Part shown: positions 4,780-35,004 of the stretch, one piece after another
Numbering within the stretch: position 1 is the stretch's first letter
How the letters are laid out: each line of letters begins with the position of its first letter
From: a virus
IMG/VR virus record: IMGVR_UViG_3300027969_000152
Span: 1 to 47,620 of that record
Direction: 5' to 3' (one strand)
DNA length: 47,620 nt
Position numbers and translations under genes: made by a program
Notes under the pieces: model-generated
What the model was told of the DNA's origin: nothing
The model's database searches: none
What the model saw: only the letters and a program-made list of their open reading frames with translations

Positions 4780-5649
4780 TTATGACCTTAGAAGTGGGGG
4801 TATACCCGCACGACTTATCTTACTACCTAGCTTGCTAGCATTTTGTTGCATAGTTGTTGGACCAATGTCAACTGTTAATGCTGTCTTGTATCTAGGATCA
4901 TTTCTTTCTTTATAGCTAGGGATATATCCACTAGCACTTTCTGGTAAACTTAATCTTTCACTATGTAGAATGTTGAGTCTGTCAAACAATTTTTTAATAA
5001 TACCTTTACTACGCAAGGCTTTAAATGCTAAATTCTCAGGACCAAACTCACCGTGTAAATGTAATCCGTTTTTGCGATATTTCTTAATCTTGTCTATTAC
5101 ATTTTGTATCTTGTTTGGATCATTGTGTTTTAATGCTACTTTAGCCAAGTCACGCATTTTATTAAACTTTAACTTTGCAGATATTTGGTCTAGATTAGCA
5201 CGTGATTTTTTGGGTAGCTTGAGCCATTTGTCATTTAAAATACTATACTCACCCAAGCTGATAACGGGTTCATTAGCGTCTTGTATATATAATTCTACTT
5301 CATATCCATTTACTAGAATGTTGTGTGTATCGTTATATAATGTTTTTTTAGCGTGAAACAATTCACGGTAAACTAATTCGTCATTTAATTTACTCATATC
5401 TACTAAGATATGCAAATCAATATCGCTGTGTTTTGTATAAGTAAAGGCAGCATTACTACCGGACAATGTAATGTCCATTACTTGTAGATTGTCAAGTCCT
5501 AGATGGTCAATGAAGTCTCCCGCAATTAACAATAATTGCTCTCTTACGTCATCACGCATAATATCACCCGCAAAAATCGCATGATTTAAGTTATCATGGA
5601 AATATATTGCGTCATGTAGCTTGAAACTGTCTAATTCTTTTAAATTCAT
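4780..5649 (-). CDS. Predicted nucleotidyltransferase (Pol beta-type fold)
   Basis: This 289-aa protein has the nucleotidyltransferase signature GSNAAF...HSDIDLHI at residues 64-80: the GS motif, then D76-x-D78 as metal ligands, with a later acidic strand YEVELYI (E117/E119). The family transfers nucleotides to proteins, RNA or small molecules; the substrate here is unknown. The C-terminal half (about 150-289) is Lys-rich and helical and has no match I recognise. The start is ATG 5649; there is no Shine-Dalgarno sequence, and a CATAAATAC late-promoter motif ends 4 nt upstream, so the mRNA may be leaderless. A strong terminator insulates it from the glycosyltransferase gene upstream. Confidence 0.7.
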   Translation of the reverse strand: MNLKELDSFKLHDAIYFHDNLNHAIFAGDIMRDDVREQLLLIAGDFIDHLGLDNLQVMDITLSGSNAAFTYTKHSDIDLHILVDMSKLNDELVYRELFHAKKTLYNDTHNILVNGYEVELYIQDANEPVISLGEYSILNDKWLKLPKKSRANLDQISAKLKFNKMRDLAKVALKHNDPNKIQNVIDKIKKYRKNGLHLHGEFGPENLAFKALRSKGIIKKLFDRLNILHSERLSLPESASGYIPSYKERNDPRYKTALTVDIGPTTMQQNASKLGSKISRAGIPPLLRS

Positions 5650-6694: not shown

Positions 6695-8923
6695 TTATTT
6701 TTCGTCTAAAAAATCAGATGATTCGTTAATTCCCGCTTTTTTAGGGCGATTGACAGTAATCTTAACAAACTCTTTGTCGTCTTGTTTAGGTGACGGTTTA
6801 TCTTTATAATTCTGAACATCCTGATATTGCTTAATAGCAGATTGTTTGGTTACTTCGTTGACTTCACCTTCTTCGTTAGCCAATAATTGTTGTAATTCCT
6901 CATCGCTAGCTAGTTCCAAATCACTTGCATCGTAATTTCCAGTACTAACTAACTTACGAATCAATGCCATACGTTCATCAAAACCCTCTTTTAATGCAAC
7001 CTTCATTAACTTAACAAATTGAATTTTCTTTTCTAATGATGCTTCTTTAAGTAGTGGCTTAGCTTTACGAACAATATCAATAACACTTTCTTTCAGTGCT
7101 TTGTCTTTGATTTGTTTAACTGCTTTTTGTTTTGGTTCTTTTACTTGTTTAGGTACGTTTAGTCTTGATTTTGCTCTGTTCATAAATTCTAATACCTCTG
7201 CGTCACTTAATGCATCGGGCATTGCTTCACGCCAGTATGCAAATTGTTGTTCTTCTGTTGCGTTAGGTTCTTTTAATATCTCACGCATTGGTGTTGCTCT
7301 TGGTCCTTCTTCACTTTGTGCAGGATCATTTACTTGTTGTCGCGGAATGATTTGTAGACTTTCTAGTCCATAGCTTTGATAAGGAACAGCTCCAGATTTG
7401 TCTGGTCTAACTAACCATTGAAATTCTGGTACTTCAGCCTTACCCAAAACTAAAATAATATTTTTATACTGACTGCTTAAACTAGGAAATATCTGATTCA
7501 AACTTTGACCAGTATGAAATATGCCTGCATGTTGCGGGAAATTTTTCTTGTATATATAAAGTTTTTCTTCTGGAGTTAACGGGTCATCTTTCCCCATCTT
7601 TTGTGACACAAAGAAAAATGGTGTTGCCTTTGATTCTTGTGCTTGAACAATAACTGCTTGTGCTAATAACATGTGACCTTTATGTCCCATGCCACGTCCC
7701 CAACCAACTACCGCATCTACCTTAGGTTGTGCAGGTTTTGCTACCGCTTCAGTAATCTTCTTTGGCGCCCAGTTTTGTTGGTCAATTAATTTTAAGAATT
7801 GTCCGGGAAGTGGATTATCAAAACTAATTTCAGGGTGTGCTTGTACGTATCCTTCTGGATTAGTTTGCATAATCCCACCATGTAATCCAATACTTAGTGA
7901 CTTGATGATTTGCATCTTAGCATTAGTAAGTCCTTCAACCGCACCTAATGTTGCTTCATAACCTTTTTGGTCTGCTAACATTCCTTGTGCTTGACCTTCG
8001 CTTAGATTAGCTTGTGCCCATGCTGGGAAATCTTGTACTAGTCCTTGTGTTCTTAAATGAGTGTTAAGATATGTGTATAATATTCCACCTGGTTTGCTTA
8101 GTCCCTTTTTAGGTGCAAGATAATTATCAATGACATTAGCGTTACTACTAATAAAGCTACCAACTTTGTCAATATAACTTGTGTCAACACCGGGCATTTC
8201 TTCCACGTATGTAGTGCCTTGTACAATGATGCCTGGCTTAGATAAATTCTCTGCATTTGGATATCTACCTTCGTCACTGCTACCCAATGTAGGGAACCAA
8301 CCAGTAGAAGCAACCATTAACTTTGCATTTAGTTGTTCAGGTTTACCTATTTGTTTACCTAATTTACTATTTGCTGGAATATGAAACCCAGTAATGTTTG
8401 GTTTAAAGTCAAATGTTTTTGTGTTTTTATTATACACAGGCATTGCAGTTTCCCCGTCCGGCTTGACACCGGGATAAAACAATAAACCACCTTCTAAGTA
8501 ACCTGAATCAGGACTAATCTGTTCAAACAACGGCCACAAGTCTGCTACTTGTTTAGCAAATTGTGTACGACTAGCATCTGCACCGCCACCTGTACCCAAG
8601 ATAAAATTCATAATATCTTGTGGATTGTTTGGTAATGTATTTACACCTGCTTTAGTTTGCATTGAACCTCGACCTAGATAAGCCCACGCATTCTTTGGTA
8701 TCAGTCTAAAGACACCTTTTTCATCACGACCCCAATACATAACTGGCATGCCGTCCCATTTTAATTCAATTGAATCATAGTTGTCGACCATGTGACTCAT
8801 ACGCTCAACTGCATGTAGTCCGCCGCTACTACCATTTGAAATGACGAGGTCCTCTATGTGTTGGTACTTACGTCCAACGCCCGGTGCTGCCGCTTCAAAT
8901 AATAATACGTCTGATAATTTCAT
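6695..8923 (-). CDS. Fusion: ligase-like KxDG domain (DUF6267-like) plus HxGH nucleotidyltransferase
   Basis: This 742-aa protein appears to have two catalytic domains. Residues about 18-270 resemble the cyanophage DUF6267 family and contain ELKWDGMP (K55), the lysine motif of nucleic-acid ligases and capping enzymes, and later YLEGGLLFY (142-150), like ligase motif III/IV. Residues about 400-560 look like a cytidylyltransferase/NMNAT-type domain: GRGMGHKGHMLL with H414-K-G-H417, DPLTPEEKLYIY (447-458), and ATPMRE (543-548), like the family's SATxMRE motif. The C-terminal 150 residues are charged and helical. The leader MKLSDVLLFE-AAAPG resembles a T4 capsid-targeting sequence, and an ITE-A site (390-393) lies between the domains. 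The start overlaps the upstream stop by ATGA. Confidence 0.65.
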   Translation of the reverse strand: MKLSDVLLFEAAAPGVGRKYQHIEDLVISNGSSGGLHAVERMSHMVDNYDSIELKWDGMPVMYWGRDEKGVFRLIPKNAWAYLGRGSMQTKAGVNTLPNNPQDIMNFILGTGGGADASRTQFAKQVADLWPLFEQISPDSGYLEGGLLFYPGVKPDGETAMPVYNKNTKTFDFKPNITGFHIPANSKLGKQIGKPEQLNAKLMVASTGWFPTLGSSDEGRYPNAENLSKPGIIVQGTTYVEEMPGVDTSYIDKVGSFISSNANVIDNYLAPKKGLSKPGGILYTYLNTHLRTQGLVQDFPAWAQANLSEGQAQGMLADQKGYEATLGAVEGLTNAKMQIIKSLSIGLHGGIMQTNPEGYVQAHPEISFDNPLPGQFLKLIDQQNWAPKKITEAVAKPAQPKVDAVVGWGRGMGHKGHMLLAQAVIVQAQESKATPFFFVSQKMGKDDPLTPEEKLYIYKKNFPQHAGIFHTGQSLNQIFPSLSSQYKNIILVLGKAEVPEFQWLVRPDKSGAVPYQSYGLESLQIIPRQQVNDPAQSEEGPRATPMREILKEPNATEEQQFAYWREAMPDALSDAEVLEFMNRAKSRLNVPKQVKEPKQKAVKQIKDKALKESVIDIVRKAKPLLKEASLEKKIQFVKLMKVALKEGFDERMALIRKLVSTGNYDASDLELASDEELQQLLANEEGEVNEVTKQSAIKQYQDVQNYKDKPSPKQDDKEFVKITVNRPKKAGINESSDFLDEK

Positions 8924-9753
8924 TTTCTGTTTTTTTGCACAAACTGTTCGGCAAGCATTACTAATTCTTGCAATTCTTCTATACTCTCACAATTCCATCT
9001 GCGTAGTGCCAATGCTTTGGGGGTAGGTTTACCATTAGGCTTTTTCATAGGACCTTTGTTGCCGCCCATTCTAGCACAGAAACTTTTACGACGGTTGGCA
9101 GCTTTGCTGCCTTTCTTTAATTTACTTGGCTTAGTTGTTACCGCAGTCTTTAACTTACTACCTGGATTTTCTCTACGATAAGCATTCACAGCCTTTTGAC
9201 TCATTCCGGAAGTCTTGTCTTTCTTATTAACTTTGTTCCAGTCTTCCGCCACACCTTGCTGACCTGTCAATGCTTGTAATAATGCTCTAGCAACTACACG
9301 ATCCTTTTCTTGTTCTTCATCAGACAACTGTGCATATCCAATGTTCATTAACTTTTCTCGTTGTTGAAGTTTTGCTTCTAGTTTGCCAGCAGCCTTTAAT
9401 TTTTCTGTGTCGTCAAATTGATCTGGATCTTGCACGAATGCTCTTGCTGTTACATTCCAACCTTTATGGATAGCATCACTGATTGCTTCAATATCAGTAA
9501 CACCCTTATCAATCATTTGTTTAGCATAAGCGGCTGATTTCAAGTTAGCTTGCCATCCAAATGTATTACCTGGACTGCTACGACCATATCCATAGGCTGC
9601 ATCTAAGGCTGCATCACTAATTGCGGCTAATTGATTAATATCTAGTTGGCTGTCTGAGCCTTCTGAAACTCTTTTTTTCTTTTTCTTAGCAATAGCAATT
9701 GCTGCCTGTTGTGCAGGATTAACCGCTTCAGTTATAATCTCAGTTATTCTCAT
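8920..9753 (-). CDS. RyR-like domain plus DUF6321-like basic domain protein, candidate packaged protein
   Basis: This 277-aa protein starts MRITEIITE-AVNP, a capsid-targeting-like leader ending in ITE. Residues about 88-162 (AISDAIHKGWN...GYAQLSDEEQEKDRVVARALLQAL) resemble the RyR repeat, a small helical module. Residues about 184-255 (AVNAYRRENPGSKL..., RRKSFCARMGG..., ALALRRWNC) resemble the phage DUF6321 domain, a Lys/Arg-rich module with two conserved cysteines that may bind nucleic acid. It overlaps both neighbours by ATGA, so the three genes are translationally coupled. The biochemical activity is unknown, and the domain assignments are from memory of the families. Confidence 0.55.
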   Translation of the reverse strand: MRITEIITEAVNPAQQAAIAIAKKKKKRVSEGSDSQLDINQLAAISDAALDAAYGYGRSSPGNTFGWQANLKSAAYAKQMIDKGVTDIEAISDAIHKGWNVTARAFVQDPDQFDDTEKLKAAGKLEAKLQQREKLMNIGYAQLSDEEQEKDRVVARALLQALTGQQGVAEDWNKVNKKDKTSGMSQKAVNAYRRENPGSKLKTAVTTKPSKLKKGSKAANRRKSFCARMGGNKGPMKKPNGKPTPKALALRRWNCESIEELQELVMLAEQFVQKNRK

Positions 9754-10511
9754 TTTAATATCTCCAATATATTACGAAACCATTCATTTACGTTTGGTGT
9801 AGCTTGTTGCCAACTACGTCCAGCACGTGCTGAACTCATAATTTCTTCTTTGCGCTTAGGATCAGGTATCTTTGCCATCATTGATTCTACACTACCTAAG
9901 TCAGCACCTTTTGCACCTCTACCTAATAGGTACTGTGCAATAGTATCCCAATCATCACTTAGTAATTCAGCTTTTTTACCAGCCGAATCACGCTTATATA
10001 ATCCTTCGTCAGGACTCCATAGCATACCCTGTGTACTAGCAAGTGCATTCATAACTAGTTGTTTGTTCACACCCTTATAAGGACTACCTTGTGGAATTTC
10101 ATGTCTATGATATACTGCAACTTTGTGAGCATTTTTTACAACTTTAATGTCAACTTGATAGAACTTATTATCCATTGGGATTTTAGAATGTACAGTTACA
10201 CCTGCCAATCTTGTTTCAATGTTTTGTTTATTTAAAAAATCTGCCAATGCTCGGCGAGTATCTGATGCATCTTTTGTTTGAAACTGTTGCATTAAAGTAG
10301 ACAATTCTACCATTGAATCTAAATCATTTGATGGGACAACATTGCCATTTGCATCTTGTCGAGGCTTCCAGCATGAACCAATTACTTCTAATGTAACTCC
10401 CAATGGTGCTAGGTATTGTTGCGTAGTATCAGACAGTGGCTTTCCGACAACAGACGGATCAAAGTTAGTCTCAACGTCTGGCCAAATGTTTCCACCTTCA
10501 AATAATTTCAT
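9750..10511 (-). CDS. Second nucleotidyltransferase-fold protein, candidate packaged protein
   Basis: This 253-aa protein has IGSCWKPR (44-51, GS motif), NDLDSMVEL (62-70, D63-x-D65) and FYQVDIKVV (D121), the arrangement of metal-binding acids in Pol-beta-type nucleotidyltransferases. The spacing between GS and DxD (about 17 residues) is longer than usual. The leader MKLFE-GGN carries an LFE site like the prohead-protease consensus. The substrate is unknown. It follows the 112-aa virion-type gene by 1 bp and overlaps the RyR-like gene by 4 bp (ATGA), so it belongs to the same cistron group as the ligase-like fusion. Confidence 0.5.
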   Translation of the reverse strand: MKLFEGGNIWPDVETNFDPSVVGKPLSDTTQQYLAPLGVTLEVIGSCWKPRQDANGNVVPSNDLDSMVELSTLMQQFQTKDASDTRRALADFLNKQNIETRLAGVTVHSKIPMDNKFYQVDIKVVKNAHKVAVYHRHEIPQGSPYKGVNKQLVMNALASTQGMLWSPDEGLYKRDSAGKKAELLSDDWDTIAQYLLGRGAKGADLGSVESMMAKIPDPKRKEEIMSSARAGRSWQQATPNVNEWFRNILEILK

Positions 10512-11510: not shown

Positions 11511-12212
11511 TTAATCCTGACGCTTCTCTAGTTTGAATCTGCGCTTAATCATATCCCCAAACATCATTGAAAGTAATGTATTGGTGCTTTCTTCGTCAAA
11601 TTCAATATAATAATGTGCTGAACAGTAGTTTATATGCCAAGATTTATAGTGCCCTTTTAGCCAATGACGTAGGGCATCACTAGGGACAATAACAGTTTTG
11701 GTGTTCTTATATCTGTGTATGAACTCTGATAATTCATCTTTAAAAGTATCCTTGACACGCTTACTTTTAAGATAAACACGATATTTATGCTTGGGCTCTT
11801 TTACGAAGGTTTTGATACCTGTAGGAGCAATATCAATGATTTCGCTCACATCTATATTAGATGTCATTCCCCTCAATGTTTGTAACAAAGTCAAATCATT
11901 GCTAAAAACACCAGCAGTATTACTCTCAACTCTGATGGTGCATGTTTTGTTTGTTTTAACATTAACATTGCGCCACTCAATAAAACTCTCAATATCATCT
12001 AGGTCAATTGCGGCTATTCGGCTAGAATCATAATATCTACGATTATTATCTAATCGTTTTAAATAGTCTAGCATTGTATCACATCCATGTATCCATGCTA
12101 GTCCCGGCATTGTTACTCTAGCACGGTATCTATACTTACCGTAATACAATACATCCCGATAGTCAATTAAATCTATATCTGGTAATTTAGCTGACGACAT
12201 TAATGAATCCAT
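11511..12212 (-). CDS. Conserved phage protein of unknown function
   Basis: This 233-aa protein is rich in Tyr, Arg, Lys and Asp. Features seen are YYGKYRYRARVTMPG (28-42), a central acidic/hydrophobic part and a C-terminal region HWLKGHYKSWHINYCSAHYY. The style recalls unnamed T4-like cyanophage proteins, but I recognise no catalytic motif. It overlaps the ClpA-like gene by 26 bp if the first ATG (12212) is used; the in-frame ATG at 12200 is an alternative. Neither has a strong Shine-Dalgarno sequence, so translational coupling to the unfoldase gene is likely. Confidence 0.5.
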   Translation of the reverse strand: MDSLMSSAKLPDIDLIDYRDVLYYGKYRYRARVTMPGLAWIHGCDTMLDYLKRLDNNRRYYDSSRIAAIDLDDIESFIEWRNVNVKTNKTCTIRVESNTAGVFSNDLTLLQTLRGMTSNIDVSEIIDIAPTGIKTFVKEPKHKYRVYLKSKRVKDTFKDELSEFIHRYKNTKTVIVPSDALRHWLKGHYKSWHINYCSAHYYIEFDEESTNTLLSMMFGDMIKRRFKLEKRQD

Positions 12213-14463
12213 TACTATCTACTTCTACATTGATTTTTTGTGTTACGTCAAACACAATTACATTGTCTACTAAGTTTACCGTAACGGTGCTACTCTTAAT
12301 CTTCTCAAAAAGAATCTTCTTACTCAATGGTACACGAATCAACTCATCAATTTTACGACTTAGAGGACGTGCGCCCATCTTGCTATCATAACCGTGTTCT
12401 GCAAGATATTCAACAACCGGTTCGCTTAAGTTAAGAGTAATGTCATGTACATTTCTGAGGCTTTTCTTCAATTCATCCGTGAACTTAATAACAATCTTCT
12501 TAATAGCCAACATATCTAGTTTGTTGAACTTACAAACCATGTCAATACGATTTCTAAACTCTGGCTTAAAGAACTCTTTCAATGCTTTATCATCATCACC
12601 ACTACGTTCTTGTGCTCCGAAACCAATTTGATTGCGTTCACCGTCACTACTGCCCAAGTTACTGGTCATAATAATGATACAGTTTTTAGCATTGACTTCT
12701 TTACCGTTGCTACCTGTAACTCGACCTTCATCAAGCAATTGTAAGAATACGTCAAAGACTTCTGGATGTGCCTTTTCAACTTCATCAAACAACAAAATTG
12801 AATATGGGTTCTTGCTCAAGTCATTGATAAGCTTACCGCCACCTAATTCACCTTCACCAAAGCCAACATATCCTGGGGGTGCACCAATGAACTTAGCAAT
12901 AGCATGTTTCTCACTGAACTCACTCATGTCGTACTTGAGTAATGGCATATCAAGGTTCTTAGATAGCAACTTAGCTAACTCTGTTTTACCTGTACCAGTT
13001 GGACCTAAGAACAAGAAACTACATGTTGGTTTAGTTTCGTTACCGATACCAGCAAATGATACATATACACGCTCAAGTACTTTATCTACTGTTTCATTCT
13101 GACCATATAGTTTGTCTTTGATGTTAGATTCAAGGTTTTTGATTCTATCGTCTGTAACATCACTCATCTTATCAGCAGGAACACCTGTATATCGTTCAAC
13201 TTGTTCGTGTATCAACTCTTTAGTGATTAATGCACCAACATTCTCAAGCACACGTTGTTTAGCACATGCCGCATCCAACAAGTCAATTGATTTATCTGGA
13301 TTCTTGCGGTCGTGAATATAACGAATAGCACATTCTACACTTGTATTGATTGCATCATCTGTAATCTCTACACTATGGAAGTCATTCAGTCTAACACTAA
13401 GACCTTTAAGAATACGAACTGTACTTTCTTTACTTGGTTCATCAATAGATACACGATAGAACCTACGCATTAATGCACGATCCTTCTCAAAACTCTCGTA
13501 GAATTCTTCCCAAGTTGTACTTGCTATGACTTTTAGTGTACCTTTAGTAATTGCGGGTTTAATCATATTGGCAAAGTCAACACCACCACCGCTAGCATTT
13601 CCAGAACCCTTCATGGTATGTGCTTCGTCAATGAATAGGATAGCTTTACGTTTTGTATTCAATGCTTGCAATACATTTTTAATCTTTTCTTCAAAGTCAC
13701 CGCGATATTTACTTCCAGCAAGTAGATTAGCAACTTCAAGTGAATATAATTCGTGATCCTTTAAGAATTCTGGAACTTGTTCATCTACAATTTGCTGTGC
13801 TAGACCTTCTGCAATAGCAGTCTTACCTACACCGGGGTCGCCAACCATTAATACGTTTGATTTGAATCGCTTAGCCAATACATTTACAATGTCATCAACT
13901 TCTTTACTACGACCAATCATTGGTTCAAGCTTACCATCTTTAGCTAACTGTGTTAGATTAGTAGTGTATTCTTCTAAAATATCATCTGCTTGATTATCAC
14001 TTAGTGCGGAAGTATAATTACCACCTTTGTAATGTTTCTGCCAGAATGGAACAAATTCATTTTTAACAATGCCATACTTCAATAAAAAGTAATGTGCATG
14101 ACTGTTTGTCTCTGCACTTATGCTTAAGTATAAATCAATGGTTGTAATTGTCTTACGACCAGTAAAAAGAACTTGTGTAACACCACGATTGATAGTGCGT
14201 TCTAAACTATTAGTCTTTCTAGGTTGAACTTCTTCACCAGGATTAACATTAACTTGGATAGCACGTAAGCTGTCTAAATAAATACCTATTTCTTTGGATA
14301 GATTAGTTACGTCAGCACCATACTGGTCTAAACATTTATTAAAGGGCGGGTGATTGACTAACGCCAACAACAAATGCTCTACCGTGCAATATTGATGCTT
14401 GCGTTGTTTAGCAAATTCAATAGCCTGTTCGATAATTGCTTCTATTTCTACTGAACTGTGCAT
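12187..14463 (-). CDS. clpA-like: ClpA-like AAA+ unfoldase
   Basis: At 758 residues it has the length of E. coli ClpA. It shows a Clp_N-like start (EHLLLALVNHPP), a first AAA+ module with Walker A GDPGVGKT (208-215) and Walker B LFIDEAH (276-282), a second with GPTGTGKT (487-494) and LLFDEVEKAHPEVF (557-570), pore loops KYRGDFEEK (252) and GYVGFGEGE (531), and no ClpB-type middle coiled coil. NQIGFGAQ (611-618) occupies the position of the IGL/IGF loop by which ClpA and ClpX dock on ClpP, so partnership with host ClpP is likely. The RBS AAGGAA precedes ATG 14463. It is co-transcribed behind the dnaJ-like gene. Confidence 0.9.
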   Translation of the reverse strand: MHSSVEIEAIIEQAIEFAKQRKHQYCTVEHLLLALVNHPPFNKCLDQYGADVTNLSKEIGIYLDSLRAIQVNVNPGEEVQPRKTNSLERTINRGVTQVLFTGRKTITTIDLYLSISAETNSHAHYFLLKYGIVKNEFVPFWQKHYKGGNYTSALSDNQADDILEEYTTNLTQLAKDGKLEPMIGRSKEVDDIVNVLAKRFKSNVLMVGDPGVGKTAIAEGLAQQIVDEQVPEFLKDHELYSLEVANLLAGSKYRGDFEEKIKNVLQALNTKRKAILFIDEAHTMKGSGNASGGGVDFANMIKPAITKGTLKVIASTTWEEFYESFEKDRALMRRFYRVSIDEPSKESTVRILKGLSVRLNDFHSVEITDDAINTSVECAIRYIHDRKNPDKSIDLLDAACAKQRVLENVGALITKELIHEQVERYTGVPADKMSDVTDDRIKNLESNIKDKLYGQNETVDKVLERVYVSFAGIGNETKPTCSFLFLGPTGTGKTELAKLLSKNLDMPLLKYDMSEFSEKHAIAKFIGAPPGYVGFGEGELGGGKLINDLSKNPYSILLFDEVEKAHPEVFDVFLQLLDEGRVTGSNGKEVNAKNCIIIMTSNLGSSDGERNQIGFGAQERSGDDDKALKEFFKPEFRNRIDMVCKFNKLDMLAIKKIVIKFTDELKKSLRNVHDITLNLSEPVVEYLAEHGYDSKMGARPLSRKIDELIRVPLSKKILFEKIKSSTVTVNLVDNVIVFDVTQKINVEVDSNGFINVVS

Positions 14464-14485: not shown

Positions 14486-15304
14486 TTACTTGTTTCGGGA
14501 TTGCAATATAGCATCTAATATTGCGTTATCTATTTTATCAGGAACTATGGGTTTGAGCAATACATATTGGTCACCCATTTGACCATTTACTTGCAACCCT
14601 TGACCGGCTACACGCACTTTAGTGTTAGGTTGTGTTTTGGGTTTAACACCTAAATTGAATTTGGTACCAGCCAATGAAGTGAATTCAATGTCAGTACCTA
14701 CAATCAAGTCTAATACTGATATATCTACATCACTATATAAATCTAAACCTTCTCGTCTGAATTTGTCATTAGCATGTACTCTAAATTCAATGATTAACAC
14801 ACCATCGGGTATAAGATTGTCATAGCGCATTTGTCCACCGTTATCTATACCTTTTGGAATGTCAACACGGATTGTTTGATTACCTGAATGTGTTCTAAAC
14901 TGTAATACTTGTTCACCACCGGTTAATACTTGTTCTAATGTGATCCAAATTGTAGTTTTAAATGTTGGACGTTGTTGTCTTTGATGCCCAAACATTTGTC
15001 CAAACATATCATTTATGTCCATTCCACTTCTTGGATCAAAGTTAAAATTGAATCCGCCACCGAAAGGAGTTCCTGTAGTAAAGTGAAAGCCTCCTGGACC
15101 TCCACCACCAAACGGATTTGGAGTATCGTATTGTTGTTTCTTTTGTGGATCGCTTAGTGTTTCATAAGCAGTTTGAATCTTTTGAAACATAGCAGTATCA
15201 CCACCTTTGTCAGGATGATGTTGATTTGCTAGTTTGCGGTATGCTCGTTTGATATCTTCGGGGGTAGCAGTTTTGTCTACCCCCAGGGTTTGATAGTGTT
15301 CCAT
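14486..15304 (-). CDS. DnaJ/CbpA-like co-chaperone
   Basis: This 272-aa protein has an N-terminal J domain (MEHYQTLGVD..., HPD at 30-32, DPQKKQQYD), a Gly/Phe-rich linker (about 68-100) and two C-terminal substrate-binding beta domains. There is no Cys-rich zinc region, so it is of CbpA (type II) rather than DnaJ type I. J proteins stimulate DnaK ATPase; the phage version could redirect host DnaK, in line with the adjacent ClpA-like unfoldase. The J domain begins at ATG 15304, only 6 nt after a TATAAT box, so the transcript is predicted to be leaderless. Confidence 0.9.
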   Translation of the reverse strand: MEHYQTLGVDKTATPEDIKRAYRKLANQHHPDKGGDTAMFQKIQTAYETLSDPQKKQQYDTPNPFGGGGPGGFHFTTGTPFGGGFNFNFDPRSGMDINDMFGQMFGHQRQQRPTFKTTIWITLEQVLTGGEQVLQFRTHSGNQTIRVDIPKGIDNGGQMRYDNLIPDGVLIIEFRVHANDKFRREGLDLYSDVDISVLDLIVGTDIEFTSLAGTKFNLGVKPKTQPNTKVRVAGQGLQVNGQMGDQYVLLKPIVPDKIDNAILDAILQSRNK

Positions 15305-28246: not shown

Positions 28247-31200
28247 TTAGATTCCGCTTAGTTTTCTAAAATCAGACAACAAATCGGTGCTATCTTTCAT
28301 TAGTGTACCTTCTGCTGTAACAATTTTAATGATTGGAGCTGTAGATTGACTGCGTTTTTCGCCCATGCCACCACCGCCACTTAGTGTTCTCATCATAAAT
28401 TCTAAGTCTTGGTCTGCTGTATCATCAGCATCATTAGCATATTCTTCTAATTGTCTTGACAACTCGGCTTTAGCCTGCTGAAGCATTTTTAGTTCGTGTT
28501 CATAATGAGAAGGATCGCCGCCAAATTCATAAGCCATCTGACTCAATTGTTTTGGAGTGGCTGCTTTGATTCTTTCCTGTGTCTCTGAATCGTATTGAGA
28601 GGCTGCGCTTTCATTTACTTCTTCGTAGTCACATCCACATGATTCCATTGGGTAACCGCATTCATTACAAGTTTCTTGTCCTTCATCGACTTCTTCTTTG
28701 CCACCTTGTTCGTCTTGTCCTAGACGTCCGGATACTACATCACCTTGAGTGACTTCATCATACGGTTTAGCATTATTTGCTAAGTTACCATCATTAGCTT
28801 CTTGAACTGGATATTCTTTACCGTCTACTTCAAAACTGCTTTGGTGATTTTTTACAGCCTCAGCACGGTTTCCACTGAATTCGTTACCTTCTTCCACACC
28901 AGCTTCATCTACTTTTTCAGGTTCATCGTCACATGCACATGGACTCTCTCCGCATGTTTCGCATTCACCTTCATGTTCTTCGTGGTTATGTTCTTCACCA
29001 CTATCTTCAATGCCAGTCATTTTCTTAATCAACGCCATCATGTCATCGCCGCCTTCATCACCCATTGAATCATGTGCGTGAGGGTCACCAACTGCAATTA
29101 ATTGTGCTTCTGGGCCTTGATGTTCATCACCTGACATTGGAAGACCATAGTTGTTAACTTCTTGACCGTGTTCTTGTTTAGCACCACCTAAACCACCTAA
29201 ACCTGCGTTACGCAATAGTTCAATGATTTCGTGTGCATTACCTTCAGTAGCACTTACATTAACACTGTCATGACCTTGGTCATCAATTGTTGTGCTGATT
29301 GTAAGATTCTCATTCAATAATGAATCCAATTCTTTGTCCCAGCTTTCTAATTGTAGGTCTTTCATATTTTTTCCTTCAAATGCTCTACGTGAGCTTGCTA
29401 AGTTTCTAATGAAACTACCTGCTTCTTTAACACCTTCTGGATCTCCGCTTGGTGCCTTAACTGTTCCTCTTGGATTAGATTGCCATGTACCTTGCACAAT
29501 ACTACCCATACCATTTTCTGGCTTCTTAGGAGGCATATAAGGTGGAGTTTGCCCCATTCCGTTTGTATTAGTTTTAGCTTCATCAACTGTACCTTGACCT
29601 AAATAATGGTGATAAGCTGTAACAACTTCACCTAAGAAATCTGGATCATGGTTTAATTTGTAATGTGCAGACTTAGGTGTCATGCCCATTTGAATCATTT
29701 CGTGATATACTGCATTAGCAAATTCATCAGAGTCAGAAGCCAATGTAGGATTTTCTTGCGCTAAAATTTTACCAATTTTCTCGTAAGTATATTCGCTTTC
29801 TTCCATTACACGTGCTTCAGAAACTTTCTTCTTGTCACCTAATGCTTTGAAGTCAGCACTAGTTAATTTACCTTTTGGTGGTGCAACATCTAAGTCATCT
29901 TGGTCGCCCGGTAAATCTTTTGTCTCTTTAACTTTCTTAGCAACTGGATTCTTTTTCTTGAAGGACGGATAAGGTGCTGTCTGCGTGAATGCGTTGGAGG
30001 TTTTAGCTGGCTTCCACTTGTCGCCAATGGCTTTTTTCATTGGCTCTTCTTTGTCACCATCAATTTCTGATTCATTAATCATGTTATCAGAAACTACTTC
30101 CATCCAATCTTTTAGACTATGCTTAACAGACTTCTTACCAACTTCACCTTTTGGTTTGCCACCTAACATGCCTTGTAAGCCTGATGTATCAAACTTGGTA
30201 TCATTACCGTGTTCGTCTTTATCACCTTTTGTTGGGCGACCACGACCACGTTTTGGCGCGTCTTTTTTAGCTTCTGAGCCTTTATCAACTTTGCCAATCT
30301 TATGTCCATATTGGTCACGAACATCTTCTTTGCCATAGCTGTTACCATAAGTACCTTTGTGTACAGTAACTTCTGATTCTGTTAGTTCAGGTAGACCTGA
30401 AAATTTTCTTAGTTGATTTAGTTCCATAGTTGATTCTCTCATAATTGATTCTTCAAAGTCACGTGTTGCCTGAGTTTCAGGTCCACCTTGATTTGGTTGT
30501 ACACCTTTACCAAGCATATCTGCTTTATCACGTTGAAATTCTGCCATGTCAGCATCGCCCGAAGTTGTTGGGGCAGGTGATTTAACTCCTGCCATTGGGC
30601 TACCTGAGCCGGCTGGTCCTGCAGTTGTTCCTGTCTGTGAACCTGCATTATTTTGTGCTGTTCTTAATGAAGATGCATTACTGACACCTGCCATTGGACT
30701 ACCTGATGTTGTTGCGGCTTGTGTATTGCTTGATTGATTCATTGCTGATTGAGCAGGTGCTTGTTGTGGTGCCATTGTAGTATTGTTAGCAGTACCTGAA
30801 CCAGCATTGACACCTGCCATTGGGCTACCTGATGTTGGTTGTGTCGCAGGTGCTCTTGTTCCTAAAGCTCCTTGATTAAATGCTGACGGAGTTTCTGCCG
30901 GTGCTCTTGTTCCTAAATTACCTTGATTGAATCCAATACCTGCTGACTGAGTTCCTGGATTAGCTGGAGCTGCTGTTGGTGCAGGTTGTCCGCCCATGAT
31001 GCCTGTCTTAGCTAATTCATTTGCACCGCCTGCTGTTTGTGCTTGACTACCTACTGCTGGACCTTGTGGTTGAGGTTTAGCCGCCGGTGCTGTTGTTGCT
31101 GCCTGTGTCTTTGGCATTGTTGGATTAACAAATCCTCTTCCGCCGCCTGCTGATGGAGGTTGTTTTGCAGATGTGCCACCTGCCGCTGCCATTGCTGCTC

Positions 31201-32863
31201 CCATGTTGGGCGGGGTTGTTGTTGCAGTCTGTGTGGGTGCCGCACGTCTTGCCGCTAATTCTGCTTGTGCATTGCCTCTTCCGCCACCAACAGTAGCGGC
31301 TTGTATACCAGCACCACGTTGAAATGATCCGGGAGGACCTGATGCACCAGCAGATGTTACTGCCGGAGTCGCTGCCGGTGGTTTTACTTGATTCATTGCT
31401 GATTGAGCAGGTGCTACTTGCGGAGTAACTTTAGCTGATCCTGCGCCAGCTGGTTGACCTACTGGAGCTGCTGGTCCAGTAGTTCCTTTTTGTGTCCCTG
31501 CTTGATTTTGCATTGCTCTTAGTGATGATGCATTAGTAGCAGTTGTTGGTGCCGTTTGAGATACCGGTGCTTCTGTTAGTTGAGACATACCTGAAAGTTC
31601 CCTTATTCTGTTTAATTCTTCTTTGATGCCAAAGAAGTTCTTAAGACCTTGTAAATTCTTTTCACCCTGTGCTCTATTCTTATCATAGCTACCAGGAGTT
31701 ACTTTACCAAATCTATCAGTATCACCAATCTCAGCATCGCTACGTGTTCTGATAGCATTACCTTCACGGTCTTTCCATGTTTCACCTGAAGCATTCTTAA
31801 CTTCAGGACCTTTGTCATACGGATTTTCTGGAGTACCTTTAACTGGTTCTGGAGCAGGGGTAGTAGTTGCAGCCTGAGTTGGTTCAGGAGGTTTTGTTAT
31901 TGCTTGAAGAATATTGGTATTTGTTTGATTTACTGCGTTTTGTCCTGCTGGATCAACAAAAGCATTTGCTCTTGCATCGTCACTATCATCCATTGAAGTT
32001 ACAGGTGGTGCTACCGGTTCTGGTTTTACTGGTTCTGGAGCCGGAGCTGGTGGTTTTTCTAATTCTCTAGGTAGTACTGAATCTGGTTTGTCTAATTCTG
32101 CTCTAGGTTGACCTGATGGTCGTGTCATTCTTTGTGCAATTTTGTCTAGTGTGTCGCCTTTTTGTATCTTATACATATTGCCGCCACCTAAATCAATACT
32201 GTCACCTGCTTTAATTTGATTAACGTTTTTAATTTTATCTGGGTTCAATGCCATCAATGATTGAGCACCTTGATTACCTTTGTAGCCTAAGTTTTGCTGT
32301 GGTTTATTTCCTGTAGTAGTTGTTGCTGGATTAGTGTTTGGTTTAGTAACTGTGTTGCCAGATGAATCTATATCTTTACCACCTAGAATTTCTGAATTAC
32401 GTCTTTCGATTTCGGCTGGTGTTAGTTTATTGCCAGGAGTAGTTGTTGCTGGACTTGTTTTATCAGCAGATGGCTTCAATGCTAACCCACCGGCTGTAAG
32501 ACCTGCGGCTGCAACAGTACCACCGGCTACTTTTGTACCAGTTGACACACCTTTTTTCGGCGGAGGTGCCTGAGTAAATCTTGGCTCTGCACCTCTTGGT
32601 GCATTACCCTTTGCCGCGGCTGCGGCATTTTGAGCTTTTAAGTCAGCCTGTTGTTTTATAAAATCTTGGGCTTCTTTACTTTGTCCTGGCTTTGGTACAT
32701 TTGGATTAGCAGATGCCGCTCTTAACTTGTCTGCTTGAGACAAAGTTTTTACTTCTTTTCCTGCAATACTTGTTGCAACATTTGGCTTAATACCAATCTT
32801 TTCTAAGCCTGCTGGATTTACTGGAAGAGCCTCATCCAAGTTTTTTAATTCATTAATTTTCAT
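28247..32863 (-). CDS. Giant low-complexity protein with LysM-like domain and Cys clusters, candidate capsid-internal protein
   Basis: This 1538-aa protein has a leader MKINELKNLDE-ALP like a capsid-targeting sequence, a hydrophobic Gly/Ala stretch (107-131) and a LysM-like segment (YKIQKGDTLDKIAQRM, 231-246). A long Ala/Pro/Thr/Gln-rich region contains SGSPMAGV and PAQSAMNQ repeats, and charged blocks follow (KRGRGRPTKGDKDEHGN). Near the C-terminus are two Cys clusters (CETCGESPCAC and CNECGYPMESCGC) that could bind zinc. The motif ELNxxRxxSG with LTE after it recurs (RIRELSGMSQLTE, QLRKFSGLPELTE) and the protein ends DFRKLSGI. The LTE/LNE/INE sites fit a prohead-protease consensus. It could be an internal/core or ejected protein; the function is inferred. 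Confidence 0.55.
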   Translation of the reverse strand: MKINELKNLDEALPVNPAGLEKIGIKPNVATSIAGKEVKTLSQADKLRAASANPNVPKPGQSKEAQDFIKQQADLKAQNAAAAAKGNAPRGAEPRFTQAPPPKKGVSTGTKVAGGTVAAAGLTAGGLALKPSADKTSPATTTPGNKLTPAEIERRNSEILGGKDIDSSGNTVTKPNTNPATTTTGNKPQQNLGYKGNQGAQSLMALNPDKIKNVNQIKAGDSIDLGGGNMYKIQKGDTLDKIAQRMTRPSGQPRAELDKPDSVLPRELEKPPAPAPEPVKPEPVAPPVTSMDDSDDARANAFVDPAGQNAVNQTNTNILQAITKPPEPTQAATTTPAPEPVKGTPENPYDKGPEVKNASGETWKDREGNAIRTRSDAEIGDTDRFGKVTPGSYDKNRAQGEKNLQGLKNFFGIKEELNRIRELSGMSQLTEAPVSQTAPTTATNASSLRAMQNQAGTQKGTTGPAAPVGQPAGAGSAKVTPQVAPAQSAMNQVKPPAATPAVTSAGASGPPGSFQRGAGIQAATVGGGRGNAQAELAARRAAPTQTATTTPPNMGAAMAAAGGTSAKQPPSAGGGRGFVNPTMPKTQAATTAPAAKPQPQGPAVGSQAQTAGGANELAKTGIMGGQPAPTAAPANPGTQSAGIGFNQGNLGTRAPAETPSAFNQGALGTRAPATQPTSGSPMAGVNAGSGTANNTTMAPQQAPAQSAMNQSSNTQAATTSGSPMAGVSNASSLRTAQNNAGSQTGTTAGPAGSGSPMAGVKSPAPTTSGDADMAEFQRDKADMLGKGVQPNQGGPETQATRDFEESIMRESTMELNQLRKFSGLPELTESEVTVHKGTYGNSYGKEDVRDQYGHKIGKVDKGSEAKKDAPKRGRGRPTKGDKDEHGNDTKFDTSGLQGMLGGKPKGEVGKKSVKHSLKDWMEVVSDNMINESEIDGDKEEPMKKAIGDKWKPAKTSNAFTQTAPYPSFKKKNPVAKKVKETKDLPGDQDDLDVAPPKGKLTSADFKALGDKKKVSEARVMEESEYTYEKIGKILAQENPTLASDSDEFANAVYHEMIQMGMTPKSAHYKLNHDPDFLGEVVTAYHHYLGQGTVDEAKTNTNGMGQTPPYMPPKKPENGMGSIVQGTWQSNPRGTVKAPSGDPEGVKEAGSFIRNLASSRRAFEGKNMKDLQLESWDKELDSLLNENLTISTTIDDQGHDSVNVSATEGNAHEIIELLRNAGLGGLGGAKQEHGQEVNNYGLPMSGDEHQGPEAQLIAVGDPHAHDSMGDEGGDDMMALIKKMTGIEDSGEEHNHEEHEGECETCGESPCACDDEPEKVDEAGVEEGNEFSGNRAEAVKNHQSSFEVDGKEYPVQEANDGNLANNAKPYDEVTQGDVVSGRLGQDEQGGKEEVDEGQETCNECGYPMESCGCDYEEVNESAASQYDSETQERIKAATPKQLSQMAYEFGGDPSHYEHELKMLQQAKAELSRQLEEYANDADDTADQDLEFMMRTLSGGGGMGEKRSQSTAPIIKIVTAEGTLMKDSTDLLSDFRKLSGI
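30540..31560. repeat. Imperfect short-peptide repeats within the giant gene
   Basis: Within this stretch the minus strand encodes several copies of SGSPMAGV, PAQSAMNQ, NASSLR..QN.AG.Q.GTT and FNQG.LGTRAPA. The DNA copies (e.g. attgggctacctgatgttg, gcaggtgcttgttg) are diverged. The region is likely to vary in length among relatives. Confidence 0.7.
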
Positions 32864-32864
32864 T

Positions 32865-34196
32865 TTAATTCCTATATCCCATTAAGTATTTAACTCTTTC
32901 CAATTCGGTAGAGCTTTCTTTAAATGTATCTTTACTAAACATACTGCCGTTGTCAGTATCTGTATTTTGCGGTTTGCTGTTTGGATTTTCTGTTGGTTTT
33001 TCTGCTGGTTTTTCTGCATCTTGTTTTGCTTTATAGGCAGCATCCCATTTCTTAGCAGAATCACTATCATTATATTTTTTTGTATGTGGGCCTGAATCGT
33101 CAGGAGAAAAAGCATATTTTTCAGCACCTTTAATAGCAGCGTAAGTTAGTGCGCCACCTACCGCCAGATTGCCTGCTGTTCTTCCCGCCCAATTACCTAC
33201 TCTTCTACCAATACTAGGGTTTACTGTTTTATCAATGTCACCTACAGTTTTTTCTACTTTTGCTAAACGTTGTTCAGCATCTGTTGCTGAAGTCTTTGGT
33301 TGTGTATCTGTAGTCTTTGGCTTAGGTGTCGGTGTCGGTGTCGGTGTCGGTTTTTTAGTAGGGATAGAGCTTGTTGGTCCTTGACCTCCAGACATTTTTG
33401 GTGGCTTTAATGAACCGGGTGTGGGTGTTGAAGCTGAACGTAATTTGTTCGACAAAGAAGTAGTACCTGCGGCTTTACCACCGAATCCGCCACTGCCGCC
33501 CTCTAAATCACGTGCAAGAACATTTGCACCTTTATCAAATTTACCTTCATCTACATAAGGATTGTTAGGGTCTACTTTTTTTGCACCTGCGGCTGCTGCC
33601 TTATCTGCGGCTATGCCACCTCCTATAGCTCCTGTACCTTTTACAACTTTACCTGCAACTTTACCTGCCTTATTTGTTGCAACTGCTGATGGTACAACTT
33701 TAGATAATCCTTTAGAGATTAAGTTAGCACCTTTCATTCCTGCATTGAATACACTAAGTGGTGCAAAATAAGAACCTATTTCTCCTACTTTACTTGCAAT
33801 CGGACTACGGTCTAATGCGTCAGCAGATGCGGCATATGTGTTTTTTAATTCGTCATCATAGTTGTTACTACCCATCATTGATTTCATTTTTGCGTCAAGT
33901 TTATCAGCATATCCAAATGTCAATGTATTGGTGCCTGCTCTTACTGCATCATCCACTGCTTGTGCGGTATTGTAAGCCGCTTGTCCTGGATTGTTTACTG
34001 CAAATTTAGCACCGGCTGCAATATCACGACCGGCTTGTTTATATGTTTCAGGATCAATTGCGGCTTTACCTGCTCTCGTGGCTACATCACCAACGGCAGA
34101 AGCAACATTTTTTCCATAATCAACTATATCATCCCCCCAACCTTCAGTAGTGGGACGAGATTTAGATTCACTGACTATGATTTCTTTTATGTTCAT
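32865..34196 (-). CDS. Low-complexity Ala/Gly/Lys-rich protein, candidate internal/ejected protein
   Basis: This 443-aa protein starts MNIKEIIVSE-SKSRP, a leader that only approximates the T4 capsid-targeting pattern (VSE, not L/IxE). It has long Ala/Gly helices (GKVVKGTGAIGGGIAADKAAA), a Pro-Thr repeat PTPTPTPTPK, a possible membrane segment (WAGRTAGNLAVGGALTYAAI) and a C-terminus ELERVKYLMGYRN that resembles the recurring EL..(R/K)..SG motif of the adjacent giant protein. Function is unknown. ATGA overlap couples it to the 70-aa membrane protein gene upstream, and the giant gene begins 1 bp after its stop. Confidence 0.5.
   Translation of the reverse strand: MNIKEIIVSESKSRPTTEGWGDDIVDYGKNVASAVGDVATRAGKAAIDPETYKQAGRDIAAGAKFAVNNPGQAAYNTAQAVDDAVRAGTNTLTFGYADKLDAKMKSMMGSNNYDDELKNTYAASADALDRSPIASKVGEIGSYFAPLSVFNAGMKGANLISKGLSKVVPSAVATNKAGKVAGKVVKGTGAIGGGIAADKAAAAGAKKVDPNNPYVDEGKFDKGANVLARDLEGGSGGFGGKAAGTTSLSNKLRSASTPTPGSLKPPKMSGGQGPTSSIPTKKPTPTPTPTPKPKTTDTQPKTSATDAEQRLAKVEKTVGDIDKTVNPSIGRRVGNWAGRTAGNLAVGGALTYAAIKGAEKYAFSPDDSGPHTKKYNDSDSAKKWDAAYKAKQDAEKPAEKPTENPNSKPQNTDTDNGSMFSKDTFKESSTELERVKYLMGYRN
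33325..33348. repeat. Hexanucleotide microsatellite (ggtgtc)x4
   Basis: Four perfect tandem copies of ggtgtc encode the PTPTPTPT stretch of the 443-aa protein. A length-variable locus is likely, and changes would stay in frame. Confidence 0.9.
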
Positions 34197-34405
34197 TTTC
34201 TTTTATCTAGCTTGTTTTCAATACGTTGTAATTGTGATTGTAGTTCTGCTACCTTTTCAGACACGTTGTCCATTTTAGTACTATTAATTTCAACTTTTTT
34301 ATCAATGGCTGACATGTTAGAATTGACGGTAAGATAACCTGTACCACCTAGACTACATGCACCTATTACTATCCAAGTCAATTGGCTTGTATTAAAATCG
34401 ATCAT
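34193..34405 (-). CDS. Small membrane protein with coiled coil
   Basis: This 70-aa protein has one N-terminal membrane segment (LTWIVIGACSLGGTGYLTV, 9-27) followed by a coiled-coil helix (NVSEKVAELQSQLQRIENKL). Such single-TM, coiled-coil proteins occur in T4-like marine phages near head or core genes; the role is unknown, and spanin- or holin-like functions are only guesses. It overlaps both neighbours by ATGA. Confidence 0.6.
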   Translation of the reverse strand: MIDFNTSQLTWIVIGACSLGGTGYLTVNSNMSAIDKKVEINSTKMDNVSEKVAELQSQLQRIENKLDKRK

Positions 34406-35004
34406 TTATTAGCTCCAGTAGATGGCTTTGGTGGACGTTTCATGTTAGACATTGGACTCTTTGTTTGAATTCCGTCTTTTGATGTGTTCTTGATTGTTGC
34501 TGTTTTCTTACCAGAGTAAGGAATGTCTACACTTGGTTTCTTTGGAAGTACTTTATCTAAGTACTGATTTGCATATTCTTTGCTTGCTTCTTTGCCGTTA
34601 TCTTCTAGTTCAGGTTTGTCTAGTAGAGCTTTCTTATCATCACTCATTTGATTTGCATACTTGTCATTTTCTGCATTGATACTGTCATTGAAGTCAGTAG
34701 TTATAACTCTAACTGTATTGATATTCTTACCTAACAATTGAGCGATTTGTTGAATCATTGGCTCAGTAGCTGGATACTTGAATTCTGCTTTAATGATGTG
34801 TACTGCCTCATTGTGCAAGTCAGGGAATCCAAATGGGTCTTTAGTTATTGGTGTAGATTTTGGGTCACTGACTGAGACAGGATCAAATTTGTTCAAGTTA
34901 TACTTAAACATTTCGATAAAGTTTTTGTCCACATCACCGGCGATTTTGATAGTGTAACGGTATGTACGTACACTTTCCATTAGATAAGAGCGAAGGCTTT
35001 TCAT
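34402..35004 (-). CDS. Conserved protein with capsid-targeting-like leader
   Basis: This 200-aa protein starts MKSLRSYLME-SVRTYRYTIKIAG. The leader ends in LME before Ser, like T4 internal-protein leaders, and the following KIAGDVDKNF...TPIT..P.GFPDLHN..VHII pattern resembles unnamed T4-like marine phage proteins with the same type of start. The C-terminal third is Lys/Pro/Ser-rich and looks disordered. The late motif GATAAATAT and a TAGGAAAA RBS lie upstream. Function is unknown; capsid-internal location is inferred. Confidence 0.55.
   Translation of the reverse strand: MKSLRSYLMESVRTYRYTIKIAGDVDKNFIEMFKYNLNKFDPVSVSDPKSTPITKDPFGFPDLHNEAVHIIKAEFKYPATEPMIQQIAQLLGKNINTVRVITTDFNDSINAENDKYANQMSDDKKALLDKPELEDNGKEASKEYANQYLDKVLPKKPSVDIPYSGKKTATIKNTSKDGIQTKSPMSNMKRPPKPSTGANK

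Follow-up and report, generated by a model that had tools for sequence, protein, structure and literature searches.

Introduction

Among the closest described counterparts of the protein reported here are the phage T4 proteins IPI-III and Alt, single ejected proteins that carry a short N-terminal propeptide ending in L/I-x-E and are processed by gp21. The T4 prohead protease gp21 cuts after L/I-x-E, and a ten-residue N-terminal capsid-targeting sequence (CTS) is enough for packaging in T4 (PMC9026906). In polyvalent proteins, which are encoded by phages and plasmids, a single injected chain unites many enzyme domains, whose release is ascribed to embedded peptidases (PMC5512222). In Kyanoviridae/MED4-213, a DUF6267/PHROG 455 protein and a 'cytitidyltransferase' are encoded by separate genes, adjacent or nearly so. 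The palindromic elements of Rickettsia are in-frame insertions into many genes. Here we describe P0001, a 742-residue fusion protein encoded by the virus record IMGVR_UViG_3300027969_000152 of IMG/VR, which was analyzed over its full 47,620 nucleotides (the window) and contains T4-like genes for tail sheath, tail tube, head closure, clamp loader, and endolysin.

P0001 joins the two families of the Kyanoviridae pair in one chain. Like the T4 proteins, it has a short N-terminal propeptide ending in L/I-x-E and is predicted to be ejected, and a gp21-type protease is encoded in some of its relatives; unlike them, it holds two or more enzymes per chain with a predicted cut site in between. Several enzyme domains per chain (two in P0001), predicted injection, and the occurrence of GNAT modules recall the polyvalent proteins; by contrast, release is predicted to be carried out by a head protease, and a DNA tag is shared at the module borders. 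These tags also set the system apart from the Rickettsia elements, in that direct repeats spelling a protease site bound variable contents. We consider P0001 a probable virion-cargo polyprotein, packaged through a CTS-type signal, cut by a gp21-type protease into two nucleotidyltransferases, and ejected with the DNA. The fusion, its boundary, the conserved sites, and the motifs were defined by sequence comparison, and from them we infer packaging, cutting, ejection, and chemistry.

Fusion of two nucleotidyltransferase-type genes

The open reading frame (ORF) of P0001 runs from an ATG at 8923 to 6695 on the minus strand, as do all features of the window given below; the plus-strand reading of 6695-8923 is stop-rich. 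Comparison with relatives indicates that a T4-like phage has joined two neighboring nucleotidyltransferase-type genes into one protein. Of 43 distinct related loci on viral contigs, 40 encode the two halves separately, in neighboring genes that mostly share an ATGA overlap. The halves are fused in L001, L209, and L267 as well as in the window; L267 is a triple fusion and has xE↓ sites close to each of its boundaries (predicted cuts are marked ↓). Among deposited phages, genes of the same two families are direct neighbors in S-8S55 and MED4-213 and near neighbors in Melnitz and C48C1; three of these four phages are Kyanoviridae. The predicted protease site I390-T-E↓A393 (7745..7756) fits the gp21 rule and coincides exactly with the gene boundary of the relatives.

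A sequence-only reading of this DNA had proposed a fusion of two enzymes with a T4-type prohead protease site between them. Both the fusion and the site are well supported by the boundary, the separate genes, and the conserved sites of the relatives, and the motifs named in that reading (K55-W-D-G, EGG 144-146, ITE↓A 390-393, HKGH 414-417, and ATPMRE 543-548) were all found at those residues; their conservation, detailed below, speaks against chance occurrence. Three features described below were absent from that reading: the site LFE↓A at residues 8-11, the Pol-beta-like gene upstream, and the tags that border modules. Programmed frameshifting at the junction was rejected because the overlaps in the relatives are of the usual ATGA kind and include a start codon. 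PDB sequence searches with single proteins and with profiles returned nothing useful. Host assignment failed, since bacterial and archaeal genomes yielded a single relative, a contig of 4.2 kb (L322) that was binned with Bacteroidetes and is probably phage DNA.

Predicted chemistry of the two halves

The nucleotidyltransferase core of the second half spans residues 393-600 (7124..7747), is modeled with a predicted local distance difference test score (pLDDT) mostly >90, and carries the motif that defines HxGH nucleotidyltransferases. In H414-K-G-H417 (7673..7684), H414, G416, and H417 are invariant in 33 relatives and K415 is present in at least 90%, and a second nucleotidyltransferase motif, ATPMRE (residues 543-548, 7280..7297), has an invariant ATPMR; over longer stretches, GWGRGMGH-GHM and GPRATPMR are invariant in the same relatives. 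The half matches the PHROG 3041 cytidyltransferase (2e-18) and aligns to a cyanophage 'cytitidyltransferase' (hhalign, 96.6%), and is unclassified in a Pfam search. In the fold search, phosphopantetheine adenylyltransferase (probability 0.97, TMt 0.51, E 0.016) came third, behind two implausible folds, in a list with no match significant at 0.001. Together, these sequence and model comparisons support the HxGH nucleotidyltransferase assignment of the sequence-only reading. A lesser possibility is that the enzyme is a nicotinamide mononucleotide (NMN) adenylyltransferase that restores nicotinamide adenine dinucleotide (NAD) after depletion by host defence, while the KxDG enzyme has another task. 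The HxGH fold family and the existence of phage NAD-reconstitution pathways (PMC12774641) agree with such a function, but the named fold match is to phosphopantetheine adenylyltransferase and the PHROG label is cytidyltransferase.

The first half (residues 11-392, 7748..8893) is a DUF6267/PHROG 455 domain. PHROG 455 was matched in 50 of 51 diverse relatives, and the Pfam DUF6267 match was weak (2.5e-5, below its cut-off); a search of one literature library gave no paper on DUF6267. K55-W-D-G (8750..8761), a putative covalent nucleotidyl-lysine motif, corresponds to motif I (KxDG) of the covalent nucleotidyltransferase (ligase) superfamily, and E144-G-G (8486..8494) is a possible equivalent of motif III (LQGDLLF in cyanophage S-8S55); motifs IV and V were not identified. 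K55, D57, G58, E144, G145, and G146 are invariant in the 51 relatives, and four deposited phages contain KWDGAP, keeping K, D, and G at ~25% identity. The model of the domain was confident (pLDDT 86.8, predicted template modeling score 0.83). Its ten best PDB fold matches were all ligases, none of them significant (best E 0.12, template modeling score ~0.2), and a viral fold library returned the family's own members first, some named cytidyltransferase-like, followed by RNA ligases (E 0.02).

The ligase-like assignment made from the sequence thus received moderate support, its strength lying in the identity of the top fold matches and its weakness in their E values. Absence of the ligase pocket or of a Rossmann nucleotidyltransferase fold, which would have spoken against that reading, was not what the fold searches indicated, and the ligase pocket is putative. 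We take this half to be, in all probability, a divergent enzyme of the ligase type. It is unlikely to be a non-catalytic structural protein of the head bearing the motif by chance; the failure of sequence and fold searches to find a significant PDB match is what such a protein would give, but the invariant K, D, and G, at such low identity in the deposited phages, and the ligases at the top of the fold list argue against it.

Predicted head-cargo signals

Residues 1-10 of P0001, MKLSDVLLFE (8894..8923), have the form of a T4-type CTS propeptide ending in L/I-x-E, with LFE↓A at residues 8-11. A tetrapeptide of the form [LIVM]xE[AGS] directly precedes the KxDG domain, as LxE↓A before VGRKYQHIE, in 91 of 93 relatives; these share ancestry and do not represent 93 independent events, the stronger point being the differing upstream contexts. 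The site is kept at true N-termini (for example, MKFSDILFE↓AAAPSVGRK) and also after unrelated fused proteins, for instance an upstream Pol-beta-like enzyme (QPVNE↓AATPAVGRK and QPINE↓AADVGRK). Within P0001, only one occurrence of the pattern falls inside the two enzyme cores. The remaining ones are found at residue 8, at the fusion junction, and in the Lys/Ala/Glu-rich tail (residues 601-742, 6698..7123), which has four further [LIV]xE[AGS] sites (610, 625, 644, and 732). A candidate protease, Peptidase_S77, is encoded in 8 of 20 records bearing the module tags. All eight also contain gp23, whose N-termini carry LLE↓G. A neighboring ORF of ~370 residues, gp22-like by position only, is rich in such sites.

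In the proposed mechanism, the first ten residues would bring P0001 into the prohead core, and a T4-type prohead protease (gp21, Peptidase_S77) would cut after E10 and E392, and perhaps also in the tail. The cuts would release the ligase-like KxDG enzyme and the HxGH nucleotidyltransferase, both of which would enter the host with the DNA and, with the Pol-beta-like enzyme encoded upstream, would form a set of three nucleotidyltransferases among the first proteins to do so. At its simplest, their role could be to mend RNA ends, of host or phage, after cleavage by host defences, a suggestion we make tentatively. The sequence-only reading named RNA or protein nucleotidylation, coupled to the synthesis of NAD or CDP, as possible jobs.

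Several observations weigh against this proposal. No gp21-type protease was found in the window, which is a 47.6-kb fragment. In the cyanophages S-8S55 and MED4-213, the KxDG protein has no propeptide, the fold similarity to ligases is weak (E>0.1), and it is only the company of the enzymes that points to RNA repair. Some separate HxGH genes have CTS-like starts (MSLKQYIIE↓A and MNIKDILVE↓A), but an xE↓-type start is present in only 17 of 40 by our count, the others starting MIQRTG or MLLREFLNRTG; the second enzyme may therefore not always be cargo. P0001 might instead be an ordinary bifunctional enzyme that works uncut in the infected cell, ITE↓A being a remnant of the beginning of the second gene. 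Overlapping genes commonly become fused, and some cyanophage homologs have no propeptide and lie beside replication-type genes; however, several independent junctions have retained the site and the N-terminus, too, resembles a CTS, which makes an uncut enzyme doubtful.

Further CTS-like starts were observed in the window at 28247-32863 (MKINELKNLDE↓A), 32865-34196 (MNIKEIIVSE↓S), and 34402-35004 (MKSLRSYLME↓S). These starts, including that of a 1538-residue protein, suggest more head cargo. If the head-cargo reading is correct, uncharacterized phage proteins that are delivered from the head could be predicted by a simple rule based on sequence.

Proposed module exchange at QGVAE tags

At the position of residues 647-684 of P0001, an untagged stretch of 38 residues (6872..6985), the P0001-type genes of L001-L004 and L010 have differing in-frame cassettes bounded by QGVAE. 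L003 and L004 have unrelated cassettes between DNA flanks that are 97.8% and 100% identical, and L002 has the cassette of L003 plus one more. In-frame modules also appear to be swapped at Q-G-V-A-E↓G tags in >150 other ORFs of relatives. A scan for the 16-bp word CARGGTGTGGCGGAAG found at least 120 stretches carrying copies, and among the matches listed 184 of 185 copies read QGVAE in the longest frame. At the DNA level, the tag is conserved much more strongly than its coding would require: in loci fetched by protein rather than by tag, one of 256 possible synonymous words occupies 23 of 33 QGVAE sites, versus 0.09 expected from codon use in a comparison that ignores kinship among loci. Conservation drops outside the 16 bases. 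Stretches of shared DNA end at tags 97 times, versus ~8 expected from shifted positions, in pairs that are not independent. CTS-like starts were commoner in tag ORFs (72/107 versus 479/1382), with control patterns flat, under a single pattern definition picked after the sequences had been viewed.

These observations make it slightly more likely than not that a group of T4-like phages, with some records of 260 to 520 kb, maintains a system of cassettes for proteins delivered from the head. In this system, CARGGTGTGGCGGAAG would be the border of in-frame modules, a place of exchange between genes and genomes, and, as Q-G-V-A-E↓G, a head-protease cut site that frees the modules. If so, phages would build injected multi-enzyme chains from swappable parts, with one short sequence acting as both recombination border and protease site; a recombinase, an endonuclease, or simple recombination over short homologies might mediate the exchange. 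That the tags are mere protein linkers, their DNA identity reflecting recent shared ancestry instead of exchange, agrees with their presence in related phages and with the existence of synonymous variants but is improbable given the single preferred word, the recurrence of modules between tags in differing contexts, and the nearly identical flanks around unrelated cassettes.

The window's only exact 16-nt tag, CAAGGTGTGGCGGAAG (QGVAE↓D; 9243..9258), is in the upstream neighbor gene, and the tail of the fusion gene itself has none. Tag polyproteins had no match among 50,697 deposited phages, and a search of one literature library gave no paper on the tag. Six contigs (G002, G008, G009, G010, G012, and G013) end within ~200 bases of a tag, as would be expected for a sample in which one module is present in several contexts. 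A search with joined flanks for cassette-free alleles gave mostly self-matches, the only clean-looking cases being L002/L003 and L256/L273. L116 and L123 share a 149-residue module (GKVINTYLWHGSRQ...) that is flanked by tags but has different surroundings in each. The ORF L005:1724-2941 has a C-terminal stretch with HELVHHRQ, zinc-protease-like by eye, and a different tag protein of L017 ends in a similar stretch.

Neighboring genes

The gene upstream of P0001 (8920..9753) overlaps it by 4 nt, has a CTS-like start (MRITEIITE↓A), and contains a single QGVAE tag as well as a DUF6321 domain (8995-9222). The gene has matches in 99 deposited phage records, mostly of cyanophages and pelagiphages; in two cyanophages examined, the DUF6321 module directly follows an E and begins with DWQKVN. 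The next gene (9750..10511) encodes the Pol-beta-like nucleotidyltransferase, with the start MKLFE↓GGN; relatives have its homologs joined to the KxDG domain through an NE↓A site. The Pol-beta pattern GS...DxD...D (G45, S46, D63, D65, and D121) is invariant in 15 relatives of this gene, and library support is weak, Pfam NTP_transf_2 being matched weakly in 2 of the 15. A second possible Pol-beta-type nucleotidyltransferase lies at 4780-5649 (NTP_transf_2 0.0025, below cut-off). A homolog of a phage ATP-dependent protease (12187-14463; PHROG 4871, 1e-233) adjoins a gene (14486-15304) whose start resembles DnaJ by eye.
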